Source: Fimbriimonadaceae bacterium
Lineage (GTDB): Bacteria; Armatimonadota; Fimbriimonadia; Fimbriimonadales; Fimbriimonadaceae
NCBI GenBank assembly: GCA_026129685.1
Contig: JAHCHO010000004.1
Span: 310,001-374,000, forward strand
Length of the DNA: 64,000 nucleotides
Direction of reading: 5' to 3'
Both the position numbers and the translations under genes were made by a program. Shown here in pieces: positions 11,191 through 42,649 of the stretch; positions within the stretch are counted from its first letter, which is position 1, and each line of letters opens with the position of its first letter. Below the pieces are notes generated by a model that was not told where the DNA came from, did not search any database, and saw only the letters and a list, made by a program, of their open reading frames with translations.

Positions 11191-11781
11191 GTGGCAGAGT
11201 GGTATTACATCGGTCACTACGGTCAACTGGGCCCGCTCACGCTCGAGCAGATGGAAGAGCTGATCGAGGCGGGGGTGGTCCAAGGCGATACCTACGTCTG
11301 GCGGACCGGCATGTCTCAATGGCAGTTCGGTAAGTCGGTCCCGGAAATCGCCTCGATCATGGCGCGCCACCAAGTGGGCCGCCCGCCCGAGCCGCCCCCA
11401 TCGCCGAGCCCCCTGTCCACACCGTCGGCGCCGCCTCGCCCGTACGAGATTCCGTCCATCCCTGCCCCCTATTCGGCGCCTTCCGCCCCCATCGCTCCGA
11501 GCTTCCCTTCCTACCCGTCGGTGCCGGGGTACTACGAGCCCGCGATTTCGCCCTACGGCGAGGTCATGAGCGACCGAAGCCGCCTCGCCGCCGGAATCCT
11601 GCAACTGGTTTTGCCCGGGGTGGGACGCATGTACCTGGGCTATGCGGCCCAAGGCGTCCTACAGCTGATTCTCTGCTTCTGCTCCGGTGGCCTCCTCTGG
11701 ATCTGGTCGCTGATCGACGGCATCCTCATCCTGACCGGCAGCGTCAAGCTCGACGGGTACGGTCGTCGCCTTCGCGACTAG
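11191..11781 (+). CDS. GYF_2 domain and TM2 domain membrane protein
   Basis: The product is 196 residues. GTG 11191 is chosen because the GYF_2 domain normally begins within the first residues (AEWYYIGHYGQLGPLTLEQM); a TTG at 11167 would add eight residues. After the GYF_2 domain (about 1-55) comes a Pro- and Ser-rich linker (about 65-125), then a TM2 domain of two helices with the typical loop (LPGVGRMYLGYAAQGVLQL, LWIWSLIDGI). GYF_2 domains are thought to bind proline-rich peptides; this protein carries its own proline-rich linker. It probably acts at the inner membrane. Its stop shares CTAG (11778-11781) with the stop of the convergent recombinase gene. Confidence 0.87.
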   Translation: MAEWYYIGHYGQLGPLTLEQMEELIEAGVVQGDTYVWRTGMSQWQFGKSVPEIASIMARHQVGRPPEPPPSPSPLSTPSAPPRPYEIPSIPAPYSAPSAPIAPSFPSYPSVPGYYEPAISPYGEVMSDRSRLAAGILQLVLPGVGRMYLGYAAQGVLQLILCFCSGGLLWIWSLIDGILILTGSVKLDGYGRRLRD

Positions 11782-12635
11782 CGCTTCGACCGCGGATGGC
11801 TTTTCGCCACCGTCTGGTGCAACCTCTCGATGCTCACATGGGTGTAGATCTGGGTGGTGGCAAGGTTTTCGTGCCCGAGGAGTTGTTGCACCGATTTGAG
11901 GTCGGCTCCCCCGTCCAACAGGTGGGTGGCGAAGCTGTGGCGCAAGGTATGGGGCGATACGTCGGGCGGCAAGCCCGCTTCCCTTGCCCAACGCTTCACC
12001 ACGTTCTGAACGGTGCGGGTCGTCAGGCGTCCTCCCCAGCGGTTTGTGAACAAGGGTTGCCCGCTCGTCGGCGCGACCCGCTCTTCGGCGATGTAGCGGG
12101 CGAGCGCCGTGGCGCACGCGCCGCCGAACAGCGCCGCGCGCTCCTTGTTCCCTTTGCCGCGCACGGTGACCACGCGTTGGGCGAGGTCGATCGTCGTGGC
12201 GTCCACCCCGACGACCTCCGCCGCCCGCAGTCCGGCGGCGTACATCAGTTCCAGGAGGGCACGATCGCGCAAGGGGGTCTTTCCCAGGTCCGCTTGGTCG
12301 AGCAGGCTCGCCGCCTGATCGGCAGTCACCGCCTTGGGGAGTCGTCTCCGCCGAACCGGGGCGTCAAGGGCTTCCGTCGGATCGGTGGCCAGACGTCCGG
12401 TGCATTTCAGGAAGCGCACGAACGACCGGAGGCAGGACAACTTGCGCGCGCGCGTCACCGGGCTCGAACCGTACTTCCGTAGGTAGCCGTGGAGTCGCGA
12501 CGGAGCGAGGTCGAACGCGCCGCCGAGATGCGTCGCCAACTGCGCCAGGTCGGTTCCGTACGCGCGGACGGTGTGGGAGGACCGGCGCGCCGCCAGGTTG
12601 TCCAGGAACTCCTGGATGAGGGCGTCGAGATTCAT
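11778..12635 (-). CDS. Xer-type tyrosine recombinase
   Basis: The product is 285 residues from ATG 12635 (MNLDALIQEF), matching XerC/XerD in length. The N-terminal SAM-like domain (about 1-90) is followed by the catalytic domain with Arg137 (AAGLRAAE), Lys161, His229 and Arg232 (HTLRHSFATH), His255 (LGHENL) and nucleophile Tyr264 (IYTHV). All catalytic residues are present. Xer proteins resolve chromosome dimers at dif. There are no integrase-specific extra domains and no attachment sites nearby, so a housekeeping role is more likely than phage integration. XerC versus XerD cannot be told apart here. Confidence 0.92.
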   Translation of the reverse strand: MNLDALIQEFLDNLAARRSSHTVRAYGTDLAQLATHLGGAFDLAPSRLHGYLRKYGSSPVTRARKLSCLRSFVRFLKCTGRLATDPTEALDAPVRRRRLPKAVTADQAASLLDQADLGKTPLRDRALLELMYAAGLRAAEVVGVDATTIDLAQRVVTVRGKGNKERAALFGGACATALARYIAEERVAPTSGQPLFTNRWGGRLTTRTVQNVVKRWAREAGLPPDVSPHTLRHSFATHLLDGGADLKSVQQLLGHENLATTQIYTHVSIERLHQTVAKSHPRSKR

Positions 12636-12642
12636 GTCGCCG

Positions 12643-13578
12643 TTAGTCAGGGACGTTCGAGCCCCGGCCGTCGTACCGCCCAAACTCCTGCCGCAGTTCG
12701 AGGATGTAGAGATAGCGCTCCAGGGGAAGCCCTTTGAAGGCGACGTTGCTGGTGCAATAGATGAACCCGCCACCCGGCATTCCGCTCCGGAGGGCGTAGA
12801 GGGCGCTCGCACGAATCTCGTCAAACGTGCCCGTCTGCATCAGGGCGCAGTTCACGTTCCCACAGAGGCAGAGGCGGTCGCCGTAGCGGCGCTTGATCTC
12901 GGCGATGTCCACCCCGCCCTGCGGGTCGAGGGAGTGGAGTCCGTCCGGCTCGCAGGCGACGATCTGGTCGAGGATCGGCATGAGGTCGCCGTCGGTGTGC
13001 TTGATCACGTACGCCCCGTTCCGACGGTGCGCCTCGATCGTCCGGTGCAGGTACGGCGTCACGAACTCGGCGAACTGCGAGGGGGAGAGGAACGGACCTT
13101 GGTTGAAGCAGTAGTCCGCGCACATTGTCAGCAACTCGGCCCCCGCCTCGATCTGCCTCGCGCCGCTGTCCACGGCATCGTCGGTCTGCTTCGCCAAGCG
13201 AACGTGCAGGTCGTCGGGCCGTTCGTAGATCTCCTCGACGAGGTCGCTCATCGTGTCCCCGTCGGGGATCGCCATCGTCCCGTCCGCCTCCCCGCAGAGC
13301 AAGAAGCGCTCGCCCGCTCCGATCTCGACAAGGCGACGAAGGGTGGGGGTGTGGCTCGTGCGGATAATCGAGTGATCGAGACGTTCCGCGATCTCGACGT
13401 GCAGGTCTGCGTTGTAGGCGACGTTCTTGTCCACTTCGTCGGGGGCGACCCCCCAAACCGGCCGGAAGTCCCGGCCGAGAAGCTCCTGCGCGAGTTGGAA
13501 CTCGAGTTCGAAGGTCGGGACGATGTCGTCGGGAGCGGTGTGCCTCAAGGCGGCGAGGGCGCGTTGTTTCGGGGTCAC
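12643..13578 (-). CDS. URO-D/MtaA-fold family protein
   Basis: The product is 311 residues from GTG 13578. It has the overall pattern of uroporphyrinogen decarboxylase-like TIM barrels used in corrinoid methyl transfer (MtaA, CmuA) and heme synthesis. Where MtaA-type enzymes have the zinc motif HxCG, this protein has HTDGD at 194-198. The later LCLCGNVNC segment and GGGFIYCTSNV near the C-terminus follow the family layout. It lacks the N-terminal Arg-rich substrate motif of true HemE, so a heme role is unlikely. It is encoded just upstream of the recombinase (7-bp gap), far from the methyltransferase locus at 34.7-42.6 kb. Function is unknown; methyl transfer is one possibility. Confidence 0.82.
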   Translation of the reverse strand: MTPKQRALAALRHTAPDDIVPTFELEFQLAQELLGRDFRPVWGVAPDEVDKNVAYNADLHVEIAERLDHSIIRTSHTPTLRRLVEIGAGERFLLCGEADGTMAIPDGDTMSDLVEEIYERPDDLHVRLAKQTDDAVDSGARQIEAGAELLTMCADYCFNQGPFLSPSQFAEFVTPYLHRTIEAHRRNGAYVIKHTDGDLMPILDQIVACEPDGLHSLDPQGGVDIAEIKRRYGDRLCLCGNVNCALMQTGTFDEIRASALYALRSGMPGGGFIYCTSNVAFKGLPLERYLYILELRQEFGRYDGRGSNVPD

Positions 13579-34715: not shown

Positions 34716-35858
34716 TCAAAGCCGGTAAGCCTTGCACGCCGCGTACATCGCCGCGATGTTTTCCGCCGGAGTACCCGGCGCGAGGTTGTTGCCGTCCTGG
34801 AGGATGAAGCGACCCCCTTCCGTCACGCCGCTTTCGAGAATCCGCCGCGTTTCCGCGCACACCTCGTCGGGCGTCCCTTTGAGCAACAGAGGGACCGCCG
34901 GACCGCCGACGATCTCGACGTCGGGACCCAGCGAGCGCCGCAGCGCCCCGTGGTCCACCGGAAAGCCCGTGTCGAACGACCGGATGCCCAGTTCGTCCAC
35001 GAGGGTCTTGAAGAGGTGGGTCGCGTTGCCGCAGAGGTGGATGCCGGAGGGCGAACCGTCGGTGAACGCCTCGATCAGCCGCCGATGATGGGGCATCACG
35101 CGCTCGCGGTACATCGCGTCCGAAAGGAGGGCGCAGGAGTCGTCGGCGAAGCCGAAGTGGCCTCGCAAGGGGATGCCGAGTCGCTCGCGAACGTACCGAA
35201 GCCGAACGATGGTGGCTTCCGTCACGAACGCCAACATCTCGTCGGCGTAAGCCGGGTCGTCAAGGAGGTCGAGGCAGAACTCGGTCGCGCCGCGCAGGTT
35301 ACAGCACACCGTCATCGGTCCGTCCGTGCCCCCGAAGCAGTTCCAGCCGACCTCGATCGGCCGCCCCTCGTACTCGTAACCGTCGCGCGCCGTCTCACGG
35401 AAGAACTCGAAGTACTCCCACGATCGGGCGATCCAGGGCTGGGTCTCGGGGGATGGGATGCCGGCGTCGAGGGCGGCGGTCTTGCGATCGTCGGAGAGGT
35501 TCGGCTTGGTGTCGGGGACCTGGGTTCCGACGTACTCGACCTCGCACCCGAACCACATCGCCTCGTAGCAGTTCTGGAAGTCCACGTAGACGGGCCAGAC
35601 GTCGGGCAGGCCCATCTCGACGTCGCGCGGGAGGTGGGTGCGGACCCAGTGCTCGTGGCGCAACTGGCGGACGAGCATGGCGCGCGGGTCCTTGAAGTAC
35701 TGCTCGAAGAAGATGCCTTCCGGGTTGGCTTCCGGCATCCCCATCGTGAACTTGCTGCTGATCGAGAGGCGCATCGGCACCCGGACGGGTTTGCGGGCGA
35801 AGTAGGCGTCCCACACCCGGCGGACCTCTTCGTTGTGGGCGGCGAAGTCGTCGGTCAC
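34716..35858 (-). CDS. URO-D/MtaA-fold methyltransferase-like protein (HxCG-containing)
   Basis: The product is 380 residues from GTG 35858, which overlaps the upstream gene's stop (GTGA). It is the last gene of the mtaB operon. It alone among the four URO-D paralogs keeps the zinc motif H-x-C-G: HLCGNAT, with His274 and Cys276. MtaA and CmuA use a third ligand, a Cys in a GC segment near the C-terminus; here the matching GNN has Asn357. It is the best candidate in the window for moving methyl from the corrinoid protein to an acceptor such as a thiol or folate. This is inference from family and neighbours. Confidence 0.85.
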   Translation of the reverse strand: MTDDFAAHNEEVRRVWDAYFARKPVRVPMRLSISSKFTMGMPEANPEGIFFEQYFKDPRAMLVRQLRHEHWVRTHLPRDVEMGLPDVWPVYVDFQNCYEAMWFGCEVEYVGTQVPDTKPNLSDDRKTAALDAGIPSPETQPWIARSWEYFEFFRETARDGYEYEGRPIEVGWNCFGGTDGPMTVCCNLRGATEFCLDLLDDPAYADEMLAFVTEATIVRLRYVRERLGIPLRGHFGFADDSCALLSDAMYRERVMPHHRRLIEAFTDGSPSGIHLCGNATHLFKTLVDELGIRSFDTGFPVDHGALRRSLGPDVEIVGGPAVPLLLKGTPDEVCAETRRILESGVTEGGRFILQDGNNLAPGTPAENIAAMYAACKAYRL

Positions 35859-37102
35859 GGTCGCGCCCCCTCCTTGTCATCCTCCTGAGCTTCCGAAGGA
35901 TCCCGAGGCTCGTCGGTGGCCGAATCGGGATTCCTCGCTTCGCCCGGAATGACAGAGTCTTTCCCTTCCTCCGCCTCTGCGGGCAACCTCCGGAACGGCT
36001 TCAGATCGAGGTTCTTGCCCCATCGTTCGCGCGCGCGGACGAGATAGTGCTCGTAGTTCGCCAGCGGGACGTCGGGCGGGACGCGGTGGTCGCAGAACGG
36101 GATGAACCCGCCTTCCTCCACCAACGGGGTCAGGCGTTCTATCTCCGCGTCGATCTCGGCCGGGGACGTCGCCAAGATGTGTTTGTCGAACCCGCCCATA
36201 AGCCGAAGCTGGCGTCCGTACTCGCGACGAAACGCGATCGGGTCGGACTTCCAGGTACCGACCTCGATCGGGAACAAGGTGTTGATGCCGGCGTCGAGCC
36301 AGCAGGGCACGAGTTGGTCGACGCAACCGTCGCAGTCCACCCAAACGATCTCGGTGCCGTGGCGTTTGAGGAGGTCGGTGATGCGCCGATACTGGGGCAC
36401 GCACACGCGACGGTACACCGAGGGGCTGAGGAGGGGGCCGCCGGAGTAGCACATGTCCTCCCACATCCCGCAATTGTCGAACCGCACCCCGGCGTCGAGG
36501 CACTTCTGGAGGAGGCTGAGGATGAGGTCGGCGATCGTCTCGACCATTTCCTCGAACCAGGCGGGGTCGTCGTAGACCACCATCGAAAGCGCCTCGACCC
36601 CCATCCAGTTGCGAATCCACCCGTAGAGGCTGCCGCCGTCGAAGGTGAGGGGGACGGTGCGATTCGGGTTCCTGAACTCCGCTACCTTGGCGTCCCAGTC
36701 GGCGGGAAAACGGTCGGGATGGTCCGGATCGAGCTTCGGCTTGAACTCCTTGCGCCAGCTTTCACGGTCCACGAGGGTGTGGCCAAGGAACATCGGAATC
36801 GAGCCGAGGAACTTCTTGCGGCGCGAGATCACTCCCTCGTGGTCCTGGACGACCTCGAAATCGCCCTCGTCCTGCAGGACTCGGTACTCGAACGAGGGGC
36901 ACAGGCCGGTTCGCACCCAACACCAACTCGCGTACTCGTCCATCCCAAAGTAGGCGGTCGCGTTGCCGTTCGTCACCTCTTTCGGGAGACCCTGCTCGTG
37001 CCACAGGGGGATCGTCTCGTCCCAGAAGCCGAAGTCGCAGATCGGTGCCCGGTCCACCGGGCGGTACTGCATGCAGGCGTGGAAGCGCTCGCGCTCGGTC
37101 AT
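35855..37102 (-). CDS. URO-D-fold protein with repeat-derived C-terminal tail
   Basis: The product is 415 residues from ATG 37102, which overlaps the upstream stop by four bases (ATGA). The URO-D core runs to about residue 370. The metal-site position reads VDCDGC (255-260, Cys257 and Cys260) instead of HxCG, and the C-terminal core has GGFIPFCDHRVPPDV. Residues 384-409 (within DSVIPGEARNPDSA and what follows) are encoded by a dispersed hairpin repeat that has entered the gene end, so the tail is unlikely to be part of the fold. Part of the methyl-transfer operon; exact role unknown. Confidence 0.85.
   Translation of the reverse strand: MTERERFHACMQYRPVDRAPICDFGFWDETIPLWHEQGLPKEVTNGNATAYFGMDEYASWCWVRTGLCPSFEYRVLQDEGDFEVVQDHEGVISRRKKFLGSIPMFLGHTLVDRESWRKEFKPKLDPDHPDRFPADWDAKVAEFRNPNRTVPLTFDGGSLYGWIRNWMGVEALSMVVYDDPAWFEEMVETIADLILSLLQKCLDAGVRFDNCGMWEDMCYSGGPLLSPSVYRRVCVPQYRRITDLLKRHGTEIVWVDCDGCVDQLVPCWLDAGINTLFPIEVGTWKSDPIAFRREYGRQLRLMGGFDKHILATSPAEIDAEIERLTPLVEEGGFIPFCDHRVPPDVPLANYEHYLVRARERWGKNLDLKPFRRLPAEAEEGKDSVIPGEARNPDSATDEPRDPSEAQEDDKEGARP
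35876..35953. repeat. Dispersed hairpin repeat inside a coding region
   Basis: A 78-base copy of the GTCAT...CCCGA / TCGGGATT...ATGAC hairpin repeat lies within the last 100 bases of the URO-D-fold gene at 35855-37102 and is read through as protein. The near-complementary arms at both ends match the copies at 34634-34706 and in the 46979-47440 block. Confidence 0.85.
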
Positions 37103-38181
37103 GACTCGTAGTTTCCGTGGGCGTCCACCAAGTCCACGATGAACTTGTAGGTTTCCCAGGACACGGACGGGGGAACGGAGTGGTCGGAGTGGTAGGCGTA
37201 ACCGTGGGTGGCCATCCCCGCCTGGAGCTTGGTGACGACCTCCTCCTCGATCCGTTCGCGGTCGTTGGTCGCCATGACCATCACGTCGATGTTGCCGAAC
37301 AGACTGAGGCGGTCGCCGTACTTCGGGGCGAGTTGGCGCACGTCCATGAACGCCTTCGCTTCGAGCGGCTGGACGGCGTCGAACCCGGCCTCGACGTAGA
37401 GGTCCATCACCGAGTTCACGTCGCCGTCGGTGTGGTAGATGAAGGGGACCCCGCGCGAGTGGGCCCAGTCGGCCAGGCGTTTGTGCTGGGGCCAGACGAG
37501 TTCGCGGTACTTGGCGGGGGAGCACATCGGGCCGCCCCGGTAGGCCATGTCGCCGTAGATCCAGACGCCGTCGAACTCGAGTCCGGACGCTTCGAGCAGC
37601 TCGAAGTCGCGAAGGGTCAGGTCGGTGAAAGTCCGGGCCACGTCGTCCACCCACTCCGGTTCTTCCATCATCGCCATCAGGGTGACCTCGTCCCCCATCT
37701 GGCGTCGGGTGGACTCGAAGGGCTCGAGTCCGGTGAGGTGCGCCCACCGGCCGTTGCGTCGTGCCTGCGCGAGGTCGAGTTTCGAGGCGTCTGGGTTGAC
37801 GAACGGGCCCGCCGCGAGGAGGCGCGGCTTGTGATCGGCGTGCCAGTCCTCGGGGGTTTGGCACGAAAACGCGACGTGCTCCGGCGTGCCGGAGCGGTGC
37901 TTCCAGTAGCGGACGGTGTTGTTCCACTCGTCGCGGTAGGTCCGAGTCTTGTCGTCTTCCGCGACGAGGAGGAACTGCCCGGGGTGGCTCCGGGGGTCGC
38001 ACCAGCAGAGGCCGTGAAAGTCCTGCCCGAGGTACTGGGCGAGGTCCCCGCCGAACCCCTCGTTCTTCCACCGCTCGATCGTCTCGGCCCAGGCGCTTTC
38101 GGCCCGGGGGATCGAGTCGTGGGGTTGGCGACGAAGAAACCGGTTCACGCGTTCGCGCCCGGTCAGCCGGTTCGTTCTCAT
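37099..38181 (-). CDS. URO-D-fold protein, HTDGD type
   Basis: The product is 360 residues. It carries HTDGD at 250-254 at the position of the MtaA zinc motif, then a GNIDV strand and HSDHSVPPSVSWE near the C-terminus. The N-terminal half has a FESTRRQMGDE segment and a conserved WIYGDMAYRGGPM. It lies 18 bp downstream of the corrinoid-protein gene and its stop overlaps the next URO-D gene. HTDGD-type members have no proven activity known to me; a metal-binding or decarboxylase-like role is possible. Confidence 0.86.
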   Translation of the reverse strand: MRTNRLTGRERVNRFLRRQPHDSIPRAESAWAETIERWKNEGFGGDLAQYLGQDFHGLCWCDPRSHPGQFLLVAEDDKTRTYRDEWNNTVRYWKHRSGTPEHVAFSCQTPEDWHADHKPRLLAAGPFVNPDASKLDLAQARRNGRWAHLTGLEPFESTRRQMGDEVTLMAMMEEPEWVDDVARTFTDLTLRDFELLEASGLEFDGVWIYGDMAYRGGPMCSPAKYRELVWPQHKRLADWAHSRGVPFIYHTDGDVNSVMDLYVEAGFDAVQPLEAKAFMDVRQLAPKYGDRLSLFGNIDVMVMATNDRERIEEEVVTKLQAGMATHGYAYHSDHSVPPSVSWETYKFIVDLVDAHGNYES

Positions 38182-38199
38182 GGGCGCCTGCGGCCGTCC

Positions 38200-38832
38200 T
38201 TAGGCCTTGCCGACCAGTTCCCGAACGAGGCCGACCGCCGAGGCGGCGTCCGGGGCAAACCCGTCGGCGCCGATCTCGCGCGCGAACTCCATCGTGATGG
38301 GCGCACCGCCGATCACGACCTTCGTGTTCGGCAGGTTGGCCTCGCGGAACTTCTCGATGGTCGCCTTCATGGCGGGCATCGTGGTGGTGAGAAGGGCGGA
38401 GAGTCCCACGACGTCGGCGTTGTGCTCGCGGGCGGCTTCGACGAACTTGTCGCTCGGGACGTTGGTCCCGAGGTCGATCACGTGGAAGTTCGCTCCGCGC
38501 CACATCATCGCCACAAGGTTCTTCCCGATGTCGTGCAGGTCGCCTTCGACGGTGCCGACGACGGCGGTGAACTCCGGCTTGATCCCGGCGGCCACGAGGA
38601 GCGGCTCCAGCAAAGCGAGGCTCTGGCTCATGGCGCGAGACGCGATGAGCATCTCCGGCACCCAGGCCTCCTGACGCTGGAACTTGTCGCCGACGATGTC
38701 CATGCCCTTTACCAGGGCGGCGAGGATGTTCTTCGGTTCGTCGCCGGCGTCGATTCGCTCTTGGGTCAAGCGAACGGCTTCCTTGCGGTCCCCGCGAACG
38801 ATGGCTTCGGTTAGGTTGTCGAGTTCGGTCAT
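38200..38832 (-). CDS. mtaC: Corrinoid-binding methyl carrier protein (MtaC type)
   Basis: The product is 210 residues. The N-terminal helical cap (about 1-85) precedes a B12-binding Rossmann domain. The cobalt-ligand motif DxHxxG is DLHDIG, with His100 as lower ligand. GLSALLTTT and VIGGAPIT complete the B12 site. It would carry methyl-Co(III) between MtaB and an acceptor methyltransferase. It is encoded 16 bp after mtaB and 18 bp before a URO-D-fold gene. The name mtaC reflects this context; the same fold serves mono-, di- and trimethylamine systems. Confidence 0.92.
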   Translation of the reverse strand: MTELDNLTEAIVRGDRKEAVRLTQERIDAGDEPKNILAALVKGMDIVGDKFQRQEAWVPEMLIASRAMSQSLALLEPLLVAAGIKPEFTAVVGTVEGDLHDIGKNLVAMMWRGANFHVIDLGTNVPSDKFVEAAREHNADVVGLSALLTTTMPAMKATIEKFREANLPNTKVVIGGAPITMEFAREIGADGFAPDAASAVGLVRELVGKA

Positions 38833-38848
38833 CCGCCTAGTGTCCTTG

Positions 38849-40246
38849 TCACGCGTTGGCCCTTTCGGCCAAGAGGTAGTCCTCGGCGACGAAGGTGCTT
38901 CGATCCACCTGCGCCATGGTGCGCTCGATGAAGGCGTCTTCGTCGGAGGGGAGGTCGTCGAGGGTGTCGGTCATGCGGTCGAACCACACGGCCTCGCGGT
39001 CGGAAATCTTGCACGCCCCTTGGGCGGCCGCGTCGGAGAGAATGGCGATCGCCTCGCGGGCGGCGGCGATGCCGGCGCGATAGGGGTTCGGAGCGACCAC
39101 GATCGCTCGGGCGACCCGCACCGCGCTCGCCGGGGTGAGGATGAGGGCTTGGGGATCGAACCGCGCGTCGGAACGCACCATCCAGTCGCGCAACGTTCGC
39201 GCGGCCTCGGGTCCGTCGGCGATCGCCTCGTTCATTAGTCGGCAGTCGTAGATCAGCGTCTCGAGCGAACAGATCGGCGCCATCCCACCGAGCAGTTTCA
39301 CGTTCTGGACGGACTCGTTGCTCCAGGTGTCGGCCATCGCGGCGGACACGTTCCCCACCGGGCTGAGGTGGGCGCAACTCGCGGTCTTCCCTTCCATCGC
39401 CATCGGGCAACCGGTGATCGCCTTCAGGAACACGTTCTCGTAGCCGCAGTCCTTACCCGGACCGACCGCGCCGCACTCGTAGGCGACGAGCGACCTCACC
39501 GCCGAGACCGCCCGGATCACGGCGGCGAACACCCGGGGAATGAGGCGCTGCTCGGCCATGACCATCGCGGTGTTCGCAAATCCGCAAGCGGTGTCGCCCG
39601 CCGGATGGACGCCGTGGCGGCGGGCGATCCCCGTGATCTCGGTCCAGAGGAACCGCATGTCCCGCACGCCCATCACGCACAGACCGAAGATCGCCAGTTC
39701 GAGGTCTCCGGAAACGAGCGCCTCGTCGTGGACCTCCTTGCCCCCGACCGACTCGATGCTGAGGAGGTCGGCGCCGGCGGCGGCGGAGCGCTCGAACAGG
39801 GCGAGCATATTCTCGTAGAGCGCACCGCTTCGCATCCGAGGGGGTCGGATCATCTCGCGCGTGTCGTTCGGGGTGACCCGAAGGGCGGCCTTCAGCCCGT
39901 ACTTCGATTCCCCCTTCTCGATGCCGTCGAGGAGCACGTGAACCACGTCCATGCCCCAGTCCGGGTTCTCCGTCATCGGGGGCAGGGCTTCGAACTCGAG
40001 CAGAAGCCCGGGGGCCTCGAGTTCGGCGGCGCGGCGCGTCGCCTCCGTTACGATCTCGGTGTAGTGACGCAGCACTTCCGGCATTGTCTGCTCGGTGACG
40101 AGCATCGTCGGAAGGGTGAAGTTGAGCTCGGGGTAGACGAGGCCCCCGCCGATCCGCATGCCGCTGCGGGTCGTGACCGGTCGCGGCGAGACTCCGAAGA
40201 GAAGCTGCGTGGGATTCTCGATCGCGAGGGTGCGGAAGCTCGTCAT
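38849..40246 (-). CDS. mtaB: Methanol:corrinoid methyltransferase (MtaB family)
   Basis: The product is 465 residues from ATG 40246; in-frame ATG 40261 and GTG 40276 would give short extensions and cannot be excluded. The N-terminus GGGLVYPELNFTLP is the MtaB signature. The Methanosarcina enzyme binds zinc by Glu164, Cys220 and Cys269; here Glu165 (LLSIESVGGKE), Cys221 (DTACGFANTA) and Cys267 (GPGKDCGYEN) line up. It would demethylate methanol, or a related methyl donor, onto the corrinoid protein. It heads the leftward arm, divergent from the DUF1638 gene by 130 bases. Confidence 0.92.
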   Translation of the reverse strand: MTSFRTLAIENPTQLLFGVSPRPVTTRSGMRIGGGLVYPELNFTLPTMLVTEQTMPEVLRHYTEIVTEATRRAAELEAPGLLLEFEALPPMTENPDWGMDVVHVLLDGIEKGESKYGLKAALRVTPNDTREMIRPPRMRSGALYENMLALFERSAAAGADLLSIESVGGKEVHDEALVSGDLELAIFGLCVMGVRDMRFLWTEITGIARRHGVHPAGDTACGFANTAMVMAEQRLIPRVFAAVIRAVSAVRSLVAYECGAVGPGKDCGYENVFLKAITGCPMAMEGKTASCAHLSPVGNVSAAMADTWSNESVQNVKLLGGMAPICSLETLIYDCRLMNEAIADGPEAARTLRDWMVRSDARFDPQALILTPASAVRVARAIVVAPNPYRAGIAAAREAIAILSDAAAQGACKISDREAVWFDRMTDTLDDLPSDEDAFIERTMAQVDRSTFVAEDYLLAERANA

Positions 40247-40376
40247 CGAACTAGGAACCATGTTGCCGCTTGCCACGGGCTCGCCCTAGGTACCAGGCCC
40301 TAACAACACCGAAAGGTACACACAATGCCCCGGCCGGGACCGCCGAACCGCCCGCCGGGGGCTAAACTCCAAGCCT

Positions 40377-41096
40377 GTGGAACCTCGCGTGGTCGTGATC
40401 GCGTGCGCCGTGCTCGAGCTGGAAATCGAGGCGTTCGCGGTCGGCCTGCCGCACATTGTCGCGATCGTCAAGCTCGAACAGGGCCTTCACAACGAACCCG
40501 ACCGCTTGCGTCGGGAGTTGCAGGCGGAGGTGGACCGCGTCGAGGCAGCTTACGGGCCGGACGTCATCGTGCTGGGCTACGGCCTTTGTTCGCGTGGCGT
40601 CGAAGGGGTGCAGGCCCGCAAGGCCAAGATCGTGCTCACCCGTGCGCACGATTGCATCACGCTCCTGTTGGGCGACCGTCGTCGCTACGCCGAGTACGCG
40701 CGCCTCCACCCTGGCACCTACTGGTACAGCCCCGGATGGAACAAGCACCACGTCCCGCCCGGCGAAGAACGGCACCGGCTCCTGCGCGACCGGTACGTTC
40801 GGGAGTACGGCGAGGACAACGCCGAGTTCCTCATGGAACAAGAGCAAAACTGGTTCCAGACGTACGACCGGGCAACTTTCGTGGACCTTGGGGTGAGCGA
40901 GACTGAGGACGACGAGGCCTACACCAAGCGGTGCGCGGCGTGGCTCGGGTGGGGCTACGACCGTCAGCGCGGCGACCCGGGACTCCTGCGCGACCTGCTC
41001 ACCGGCCCCTGGGACGACGAACGGTTCTTGGTCCTGGAACCGGGCGAGTCGGCGCGGATGACGGCGGACGAGCGGGTGGTCGAGGCAACCTCGTGA
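40377..41096 (+). CDS. DUF1638 domain protein
   Basis: The product is 239 residues from GTG 40377. DUF1638 features are VIACAVLELEIEAF at the start, DVIVLGYGLCSRGVEG, and RAHDCITLLLGDR with paired Cys residues that suggest metal or cofactor contact. The function is unknown. From general knowledge, members are often encoded beside corrinoid methyltransferases, which fits the divergent mtaB operon and the overlapping RACo-type gene (GTGA at 41093-41096). Confidence 0.85.
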   Translation: MEPRVVVIACAVLELEIEAFAVGLPHIVAIVKLEQGLHNEPDRLRRELQAEVDRVEAAYGPDVIVLGYGLCSRGVEGVQARKAKIVLTRAHDCITLLLGDRRRYAEYARLHPGTYWYSPGWNKHHVPPGEERHRLLRDRYVREYGEDNAEFLMEQEQNWFQTYDRATFVDLGVSETEDDEAYTKRCAAWLGWGYDRQRGDPGLLRDLLTGPWDDERFLVLEPGESARMTADERVVEATS

Positions 41097-42649
41097 GGAT
41101 CGTCGTCGAGTTGCCCAACGACGAGGTCACGATCCTGCCGGACCGTGCCCTCGCGCACCGGCCGCTGAGCGAGATCCTGCGGCGCAAATCGGTCGCCCTG
41201 AACACGCGCTGCGGACAGAAGGGCCAATGCAACGGTTGTAAGGTCGAACTGCTCGAGGGCCAAGTCGAGCCGATGCCGGAATCTGGAACGACCTTCGCCG
41301 CTTGCCAGTGTCGGGCGCTGGGCGACGTCCGGATTCGGGTTCCCCACCGGTCGCTCGTGGACTACGAGCCACAAGTTCTGGGCGACTACCGTATCGGGGT
41401 CGGTCTGGCGGACGAACCCCTCTACCCGGGATTGGCGGCGGCGGTGGACGTCGGGACGACGACGATCGTCGTGCAACTGGTGGAGAACGGCGAGACCGTC
41501 GCGGAGGCGTCCGCCTTCAACGCCCAGATGCGCCTGGGGGACGACGTCCTCACTCGCATCAACCTGTGCTCGACGGACGGGTCGATGCTGGGCGAACTGC
41601 AAGACGCGGTCGCCGGCACGATCCGGTCCCTGGTGCAGGAGTGTCTCGCCGAGTTGGCCCGTCCAACCGCCGACCTCCTTGGTTACGCCATCGCGGGCAA
41701 CACGACGATGCTCCACCTCCTGGCGGGCGTGAACCCCCGCTCGCTCGGTGTCGCGCCGTTCACCCCCGAGTTTCTTGAAACCCGCACCCTGGCGGCCTCC
41801 GAGGTGGGATTGGAGCCGTCCAACGCCGACGTCACGCTTCTGCCCGGCGCCGCCGCCTATGTCGGCGCGGACCTGACGGCGGGGGTTTTCGCGTCGGGCC
41901 TGCTTTACGACGACGGTCCGTCCCTGCTGGTGGACATCGGCACCAACGGCGAGATCATCCTGAAGGAAGGCGACGACTTGTTCGGGTGCGCGACGGCGGC
42001 GGGACCGGCCTTCGAGGGATCGGGGCTGTCTTGCGGGATGCGCGCGGGGCGTGGGGCGGTCGCCCACCTCGCCTTCCCTGCCGACGGTTCGCCCGCGATC
42101 GAGGTGATCGGGGGTGGGGACCCGGAGGGGCTTTGCGGTTCGGCGTACGTGGATCTGCTCGCCGAAGGGCGTCGGGTGGGTTTGCTCGGCCCGGTCGGGC
42201 GCATCGGCCCTTCGGCGGAAAAGGTCGAAGTCCACGCGGGAGTCCGCGCCATCCGGATCGGGACCGGGCGGGGCCAATCCCCGATCGTCGTCACCGAGTT
42301 CGACGTGGCGGCGCTCCTCCAGGCGAAGGCGGCGATCGCGGCGGGTATCGAAACGTTGCTGTCCAAGGCGGGGATCCGGGCGAGCGACCTTCGCAACGTC
42401 TACGTGGCGGGCGGATTCGGAATGCACCTGAACCTGGACCACGCGATCGCGTGCGGCCTGCTTCCCGGGCTCGCGCGCGAAAAGTTGATCCTCGTCGGCA
42501 ACACGTCGTTGGGGGGCGCGTTCGCGACCCTGGTGGATCAGACTTGCCTATCGGAGATCGCGCGGGTGGGGCGCGACATGACGATCGTCGAACTCAATCG
42601 AGAGCCCGGGTTCGAGGACGCGTTCATCGACCACCTGTCGTTGCCGTGA
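41093..42649 (+). CDS. Corrinoid protein reductive activator (RACo/RamA-like, ferredoxin-ASKHA)
   Basis: The product is 518 residues from GTG 41093, overlapping the DUF1638 stop. An N-terminal plant-type [2Fe-2S] ferredoxin domain has Cys40, Cys46, Cys49 (RCGQKGQCNGC) and Cys71 or Cys73. Then an ASKHA ATPase domain follows: AAVDVGTTTIVVQL, IAGNTTMLHLL, LLVDIGTNGEI, GPAFEGSGLSCGM and a NVYVAGGFG end. In acetogens and methylotrophs such proteins use ATP and an electron donor to re-reduce inactive Co(II) corrinoid to Co(I). The obvious partner is the corrinoid protein of the divergent mtaB operon. Confidence 0.93.
   Translation: MRIVVELPNDEVTILPDRALAHRPLSEILRRKSVALNTRCGQKGQCNGCKVELLEGQVEPMPESGTTFAACQCRALGDVRIRVPHRSLVDYEPQVLGDYRIGVGLADEPLYPGLAAAVDVGTTTIVVQLVENGETVAEASAFNAQMRLGDDVLTRINLCSTDGSMLGELQDAVAGTIRSLVQECLAELARPTADLLGYAIAGNTTMLHLLAGVNPRSLGVAPFTPEFLETRTLAASEVGLEPSNADVTLLPGAAAYVGADLTAGVFASGLLYDDGPSLLVDIGTNGEIILKEGDDLFGCATAAGPAFEGSGLSCGMRAGRGAVAHLAFPADGSPAIEVIGGGDPEGLCGSAYVDLLAEGRRVGLLGPVGRIGPSAEKVEVHAGVRAIRIGTGRGQSPIVVTEFDVAALLQAKAAIAAGIETLLSKAGIRASDLRNVYVAGGFGMHLNLDHAIACGLLPGLAREKLILVGNTSLGGAFATLVDQTCLSEIARVGRDMTIVELNREPGFEDAFIDHLSLP

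Follow-up and report, generated by a model that had tools for sequence, protein, structure and literature searches.

The locus studied here raises a double question: from which compounds does its corrinoid carrier receive methyl groups, and to which acceptor are they passed on? The locus lies in a window of 64,000 nucleotides (the whole stretch of DNA analysed, G000:C13:310001-374000) from a 3.94 Mb genome, 99% complete, of the Fimbriimonadaceae, Armatimonadota (family f1). The initial annotation had described a corrinoid methyl-transfer locus in which an MtaB with three zinc ligands and a carrier were followed by an arm of three URO-D proteins. We recovered all these components by Pfam (Table 1); the multi-URO-D arm is real and conserved, and no acceptor enzyme is in place. 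The gene coordinates also gave the same gaps as annotated, 16, 18, -4 and -4 bases in the leftward order MtaB, carrier, URO1, URO2, URO3, the two negative values corresponding to overlaps of URO2 with URO1 and of URO3 with URO2. DUF1638 and the RACo-type activator were likewise found on a divergent arm. The middle and C-terminal domains of RACo were matched by Pfam models, and its start is most likely at 41093, 4 bases within DUF1638; we preferred this position, inside the end of DUF1638, to the first GTG of the long frame. The same gene set was found again in other families and phyla, far beyond chance. The host genome encodes 12 URO-D genes in total, one of which (12643-13578 of the window) adjoins a phage-type integrase gene on the same strand, the pair spanning 11778-13578.

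Table 1. Genes of the corrinoid methyltransferase locus (window coordinates)
Feature	Coordinates	Strand	Evidence
MtaB-type methyl-donor:corrinoid methyltransferase	38849..40246	-	PF12176 545.6 bits; zinc ligands; single genome copy
Corrinoid carrier (MtxC, name used here)	38200..38832	-	PF02607 (B12-binding_2) + PF02310 (B12-binding)
URO1, URO-D-fold methyltransferase	37099..38181	-	PF01208 63.0 bits; ligand columns H-D-H
URO2, URO-D-fold methyltransferase	35855..37102	-	PF01208 52.9 bits; ligand columns D-D-H
URO3, URO-D-fold methyltransferase	34716..35858	-	PF01208 90.8 bits; ligand columns H-C-N
DUF1638 protein	40377..41096	+	PF07796 133.9 bits
RACo/RamA-type ATP-dependent corrinoid reductive activator, N-terminal [2Fe-2S] domain	41093..42649	+	PF14574, PF17651, PF00111

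The presence of MtaB would suggest methanol as the donor. The protein matched the Methanosarcina MtaB (2i2x) with 316 bits across ~440 residues, and the zinc ligands Glu, Cys and Cys, at what we take to be their positions in 2i2x, are kept as E165, C221 and C267, which were invariant among 17 aligned relatives. Its score against the methanol equivalog of NCBIfam was 425 bits, for a cut-off of 720 bits. We placed it in a tree of 111 MtaB sequences, obtained with a quick method, in which the M. barkeri branch was long and the acetogen MtaB were not among the sequences. The focal protein fell in a group of 106 rows from Armatimonadota, Verrucomicrobiota, Planctomycetota, Hydrogenedentota, and Chloroflexota, separated with an SH-aLRT support of 100 from the M. 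barkeri MtaB (2i2x) and four Armatimonadota enzymes of families f14 and f25. On this topology the focal MtaB is outside the canonical methanol clade, and its substrate therefore cannot be read from homology. The intact zinc ligands were rejected as proof of methanol use, being common to the separate clade. Among the marks of a methanol system, we thus found the zinc ligands, and neither an equivalog-level score, nor a grouping with characterised MtaB, nor an H-C-C MtaA in the operon. A branching of MtaB with non-methanol enzymes, which would have spoken against the initial reading, was borne out in part: the protein stands apart from the methanogen-type MtaB, but no group member with a known non-methanol substrate was found. 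Two other associations of MtaB were observed. In family f25 of Armatimonadota (L066, L067, L068; e.g., L068:10738-12486), a canonical-type MtaB is paired with a CmuA-like protein in which an H-C-C URO-D domain is fused to a B12 carrier domain, and in many Verrucomicrobiota (L140:11401-11988 and about nine similar loci) a small protein, DUF6580, comes directly after MtaB.

More was learned from the loci that lack this gene. In 11 Armatimonadota genomes without MtaB, the carrier occurs together with URO-D genes and a standalone homocysteine S-methyltransferase (HMT; PF02574, ~290 aa), the minimum being carrier-URO2-HMT, the only genes of the locus in G083. Three genomes of the focal family (G108, G129, and G137; 96-97% complete, no PF12176 match) exhibit DUF1638/RACo divergent from carrier-URO1-URO2-(URO3)-URO4-HMT. 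In G108, the genes from URO1 through the fourth URO-D overlap by 4 bases, with HMT 4 bases further. Other variants without MtaB were found in G123, G128, G148, G028, G055, G060, and G214. Judged by gene content, these carrier-HMT loci have no candidate methyl-collecting enzymes other than the URO-Ds; where a locus comprises only the carrier, URO-Ds and HMT, a URO-D must be the donor enzyme, unless the latter is encoded elsewhere in the genome. The focal carrier, URO1-3, DUF1638, and RACo are about as close, or closer, to their counterparts in operons without MtaB as to those of the MtaB-bearing G091 and G093. A relative of the fourth URO-D is present in the focal genome at C4 (47% identity), and HMT is also located elsewhere, so that the focal operon resembles that of the family, with MtaB added at its front and two genes relocated. 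Our key result is that MtaB, as far as gene content tells, is an optional extra methyl input.

This result bears directly on the view held at the outset, in which MtaB, acting on methanol, is the sole donor enzyme, and each URO-D would serve, like MtaA with CoM, as one of several alternative enzymes for the terminal transfer to small acceptors. The URO-D fold of MtaA and the preserved zinc site of MtaB speak for it. However, the same URO-Ds stand beside the carrier in genomes that lack MtaB; there they are the sole candidate donor enzymes, and HMT already supplies a terminal enzyme. Moreover, URO1-3 do not possess the H-C-C triad. The branched or modified final transfer proposed for the URO-Ds in the initial annotation was thus not retained, and we consider this view improbable.

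The URO-Ds are a regular component of the MtaB loci as well, with 140 proteins in 64 of the 114 non-duplicate loci and up to ten per locus. Their absence from other copies of the locus, which would have spoken against a role in corrinoid transfer, was not what we found: orthologs in other loci were 54-69% identical for URO1, 45-63% for URO2, and 46-53% for URO3. All three scored far below the cut-offs of the MtaA and CmuA models of NCBIfam. The AlphaFold model of URO2 (pLDDT 89) has the URO-D fold, with MtaA as top Foldseek match and VIA-align Z scores of 22-23 for UroD and 20-21 for MtaA. The best match of URO3 among solved structures was MtaA (4ay7, E 9e-9), and no solved structure matched URO1 by sequence. 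The ligand columns, which were read from a distant alignment, depart from the His-Cys-Cys of MtaA in each of the three proteins (Table 1). Close orthologs of URO1-3 retain their respective letters across phyla, and other URO-Ds in sister-taxon loci retain H-C-C. In this superfamily, O-methyltransferases replace one or both zinc Cys (PMC10418091). The distance of the alignment calls for caution here, as does the URO-D demethylase CdmB, which is active without zinc (PMC13222342). One or both Cys are replaced in URO1-3, as in OdmB, VdmB, and MtvB, a likeness based on ligand columns. The lack of H-C-C in URO1-3 thus favours oxygen donors by the published rule (PMC10418091). URO1-3 resemble the O-demethylase side of the superfamily and would take methyl groups from oxygen-bound donors, and they are unlikely, from these columns, to be thiol METHYLTRANSFERASES. 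The H-C-C URO-Ds in sister-taxon loci count against this reading of the donor side. Beside the URO-Ds proper, a family of ~355 aa with an HLDG motif adjoins MtaB in several loci (L052:8305-9381, L092:14676-15731, and relatives); it has no Pfam match and was picked up by a URO-D profile. We read it as a divergent offshoot of the URO-Ds; the focal genome has a copy at C12. A lone URO-D gene of the focal genome, with an HSCG motif, is immediately preceded by an arsenite-methyltransferase-like gene, from our reading of the sequence (L086:12.7-14.9 kb, C17).

The acceptor side was approached through HMT. Of the 114 non-duplicate MtaB loci, 22 encode this enzyme; they belong to Armatimonadota, Verrucomicrobiota, and Planctomycetota, and every HMT copy at them has the GGCC zinc motif. 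By our own estimate, the chance that one of the 1-2 such genes of a 4 Mb genome falls within a 20 kb stretch is ~1%. The 92 other MtaB loci had no HMT in the sequence examined, which counts against this acceptor, although many of their contigs are short. Among 85 genomes of the family, the carrier was present in 12, HMT in 12, and both in 11 (p = 7e-12, a value which overstates independence since these genomes are related); carrier and MtaB occurred together in five. Carrier and HMT were less than 6 kb apart in 10 of the 11 genomes with both. The exception is the focal genome, whose HMT gene forms a row with cysK and cysE on contig C17 (about 17.7-18.7 kb), and this distance from the locus counts against homocysteine as the acceptor. 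In a careful tree, the focal HMT was nested with those encoded in the operons of G108, G129, and G137 (support 100/98). From this linkage, the methyl acceptor is probably homocysteine.

The main competitor for this role would be folate. The same donor enzymes would then charge the carrier, but a split MetH, through the pterin domain of its B12-less N-terminal half, would pass the methyl group to H4folate, to be oxidised for energy or used in biosynthesis. MetH is indeed split in the focal family: a frame of 650-730 aa with HMT and pterin domains and no B12 domain was found in G000, G091, G093, G094, and G149, and such a half could interact with a carrier other than its own, in the way suggested for MtgD (PMC12478193). 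In the focal genome, the HMT+pterin half is at C11:88-90 kb (L080:223-2304) and the B12+activation half at C1:147-149 kb (L083). We thus rejected the idea that the carrier replaces a missing B12 module of MetH, and the possession by MetH of its own B12 half also argues against the folate route. No pterin-binding protein was detected at 121 loci with phmmer searches using FolP and MetH pterin domains, nor among the commonest neighbour families, whereas HMT does occur at loci. No standalone folate methyltransferase was found in the focal genome, whose own Pterin_bind matches were FolP and the split MetH. In 19 MtaB genomes, the Pterin_bind matches were FolP and frames of MetH size, apart from one additional weak match in G044. 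Outside the focal family, most MtaB genomes have a full-length MetH, and G061, with MtaB, carrier and HMT, has no detected MetH. We consequently regard transfer to folate as rather unlikely. The two halves of MetH in the focal genome also imply that a carrier-HMT route is not needed for methionine, which counts against homocysteine as the acceptor.

The carrier and its putative activation proteins invite comparison with a known system of another kind. The carrier is 65-71% identical to those of family relatives, and its closest NCBIfam models were MtgC and MtbC, all below their cut-offs (best MtgC_2, 180.6 of 370 bits). A third B12-binding gene of the genome (C8) was rejected as a second free carrier, its product being fused, from our reading of the sequence, to a DNA-binding-like N-terminus. 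Carrier-like genes with an in-frame stop were observed in G253, G254, G255, G257, and G289 (TAG) and in G284 (TGA), which could be due to recoding, truncation or assembly error. In DUF1638, residues H38, C71, H91, D92, and C93 were invariant in 28 relatives, which suggests a metal or cofactor site. Its AlphaFold model is confident (pLDDT 95.3); Foldseek gave no match at E 0.001 or better and a second structural comparison only Z scores below 8, so that no function was drawn from the model. Phaeobacter cannot make methionine by its B12-dependent route without DUF1638 and RamA-like proteins (PMC5764234), and in Ruegeria the abundance of these proteins is higher while betaine is being demethylated (PMC12478193). 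By analogy with Phaeobacter, DUF1638 probably helps corrinoid reactivation. In Verrucomicrobiota (L121:5013-7493, L122, L140, L146, L155), a protein that joins fatty-acid-desaturase-like, Rieske and FAD/NAD reductase domains is encoded next to DUF1638 and RACo; it is possibly an electron donor of the activator, or an oxygenase.

The closest likeness is with MtgBCDE, the glycine-betaine demethylation and split methionine synthase system of Ruegeria pomeroyi and Phaeobacter inhibens (PMC12478193, PMC5764234). Both have a RamA-like activator and DUF1638, in the setting of a putative aerobic-type heterotroph. In MtgBCDE, one MtgC carrier serves donor enzymes and a standalone HMT (MtgE there); the carrier and HMT described here would be their putative counterparts. 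In contrast to MtgBCDE, the donors here would be MtaB and URO-Ds instead of the MttB-family MtgB (no PF06253 match among the operon proteins), there is no separate pterin protein MtgD, and relatives have their HMT gene in linkage with that of the carrier, whereas mtgE is usually unlinked. By this analogy, we propose an MtgBCDE-like system working with other donor enzymes. The locus shares with MtaABC the MtaB fold and its three zinc ligands, but the MtaB clade is separate, the carrier is nearer to the MtgC/MtbC models than to MtaC, and the operon has no H-C-C MtaA. The O-demethylase and chloromethane systems of acetogens and Methermicoccus (OdmB, VdmB, MtvB, MtoB, CdmB; PMC13222342, PMC8630106) likewise have a URO-D-fold donor enzyme, a carrier and an ATP-dependent activator; there, however, a linked pterin enzyme transfers the methyl group to H4folate or H4MPT, and none is linked here. 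In a literature search mostly restricted to open-licence papers, we found no paper on the combination of HMT, corrinoid carrier and URO-D, or on methoxyl use in Verrucomicrobiota.

Type 1 mlp clusters, for which a thiol acceptor has been proposed (PMC10418091), exhibit a similar broad layout: a single carrier and a single activator accompany several distinct URO-D paralogs, and a folate methyltransferase is absent. The locus could thus be a relative of these clusters, demethylating methyl-sulfur or methyl-selenium compounds for salvage, and the H-C-C URO-Ds of some sister loci would agree with this. However, mlp clusters are marked by at least two H-C-C Mlps, near MtaA, and URO1-3 lack H-C-C and score far below the MtaA and CmuA cut-offs. 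In mlp clusters, carrier and activator both run in the direction of the mlp genes, whereas here the carrier is co-directional with the URO-Ds and RACo is divergent. MtaB and DUF1638, which have not been described in mlp clusters, are additional here, as is HMT. The absence of an H4folate methyltransferase within 20 kb is shared, the Pterin_bind genes of the genome being on other contigs. Such a relationship seems to us a poor explanation of the locus.

We thus favour, with a probability of about 0.6, a multi-donor corrinoid methyltransferase system most likely feeding homocysteine. The Co(I) carrier would be methylated by any of several substrate-specific enzymes, MtaB, URO1, URO2 or URO3; the methyl-Co(III) carrier would dock directly on HMT and give its methyl group to homocysteine, forming methionine; and RACo, with DUF1638 as helper, would reduce carrier that has slipped to Co(II). 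The neighbours of the loci, among 102 flanking proteins, included 22 AraC regulators, 10 DUF6580, and 8 CobW GTPases, as would suit a system that is induced on demand and needs a supply of cofactor or metal. One locus is flanked by glycoside hydrolases. As a guess, the donors could be methoxyl groups from plant matter.

More tentatively, at somewhat less than even odds, we suggest that a folate-free methionine route of this type is widespread among Armatimonadota and PVC bacteria. Its URO-D demethylases, of which a locus can have as many as ten, would be interchangeable, each acting on a different environmental methoxyl compound, and would charge one carrier donating directly to homocysteine, with MtaB as a plug-in input. 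Besides MetH, corrinoid methyltransferases are known mostly from anaerobes that pass the methyl group to folate or coenzyme M. The acceptor question is accessible in vitro with the minimal carrier-URO2-HMT unit of G083. If the proposal is true, the demethylation of outside compounds would be coupled straight to methionine in poorly cultured phyla, many "uroporphyrinogen decarboxylase-like" genes of Armatimonadota, Verrucomicrobiota, and Planctomycetota would gain a function, and caution would be required when inferring methanol use from mtaB alone.
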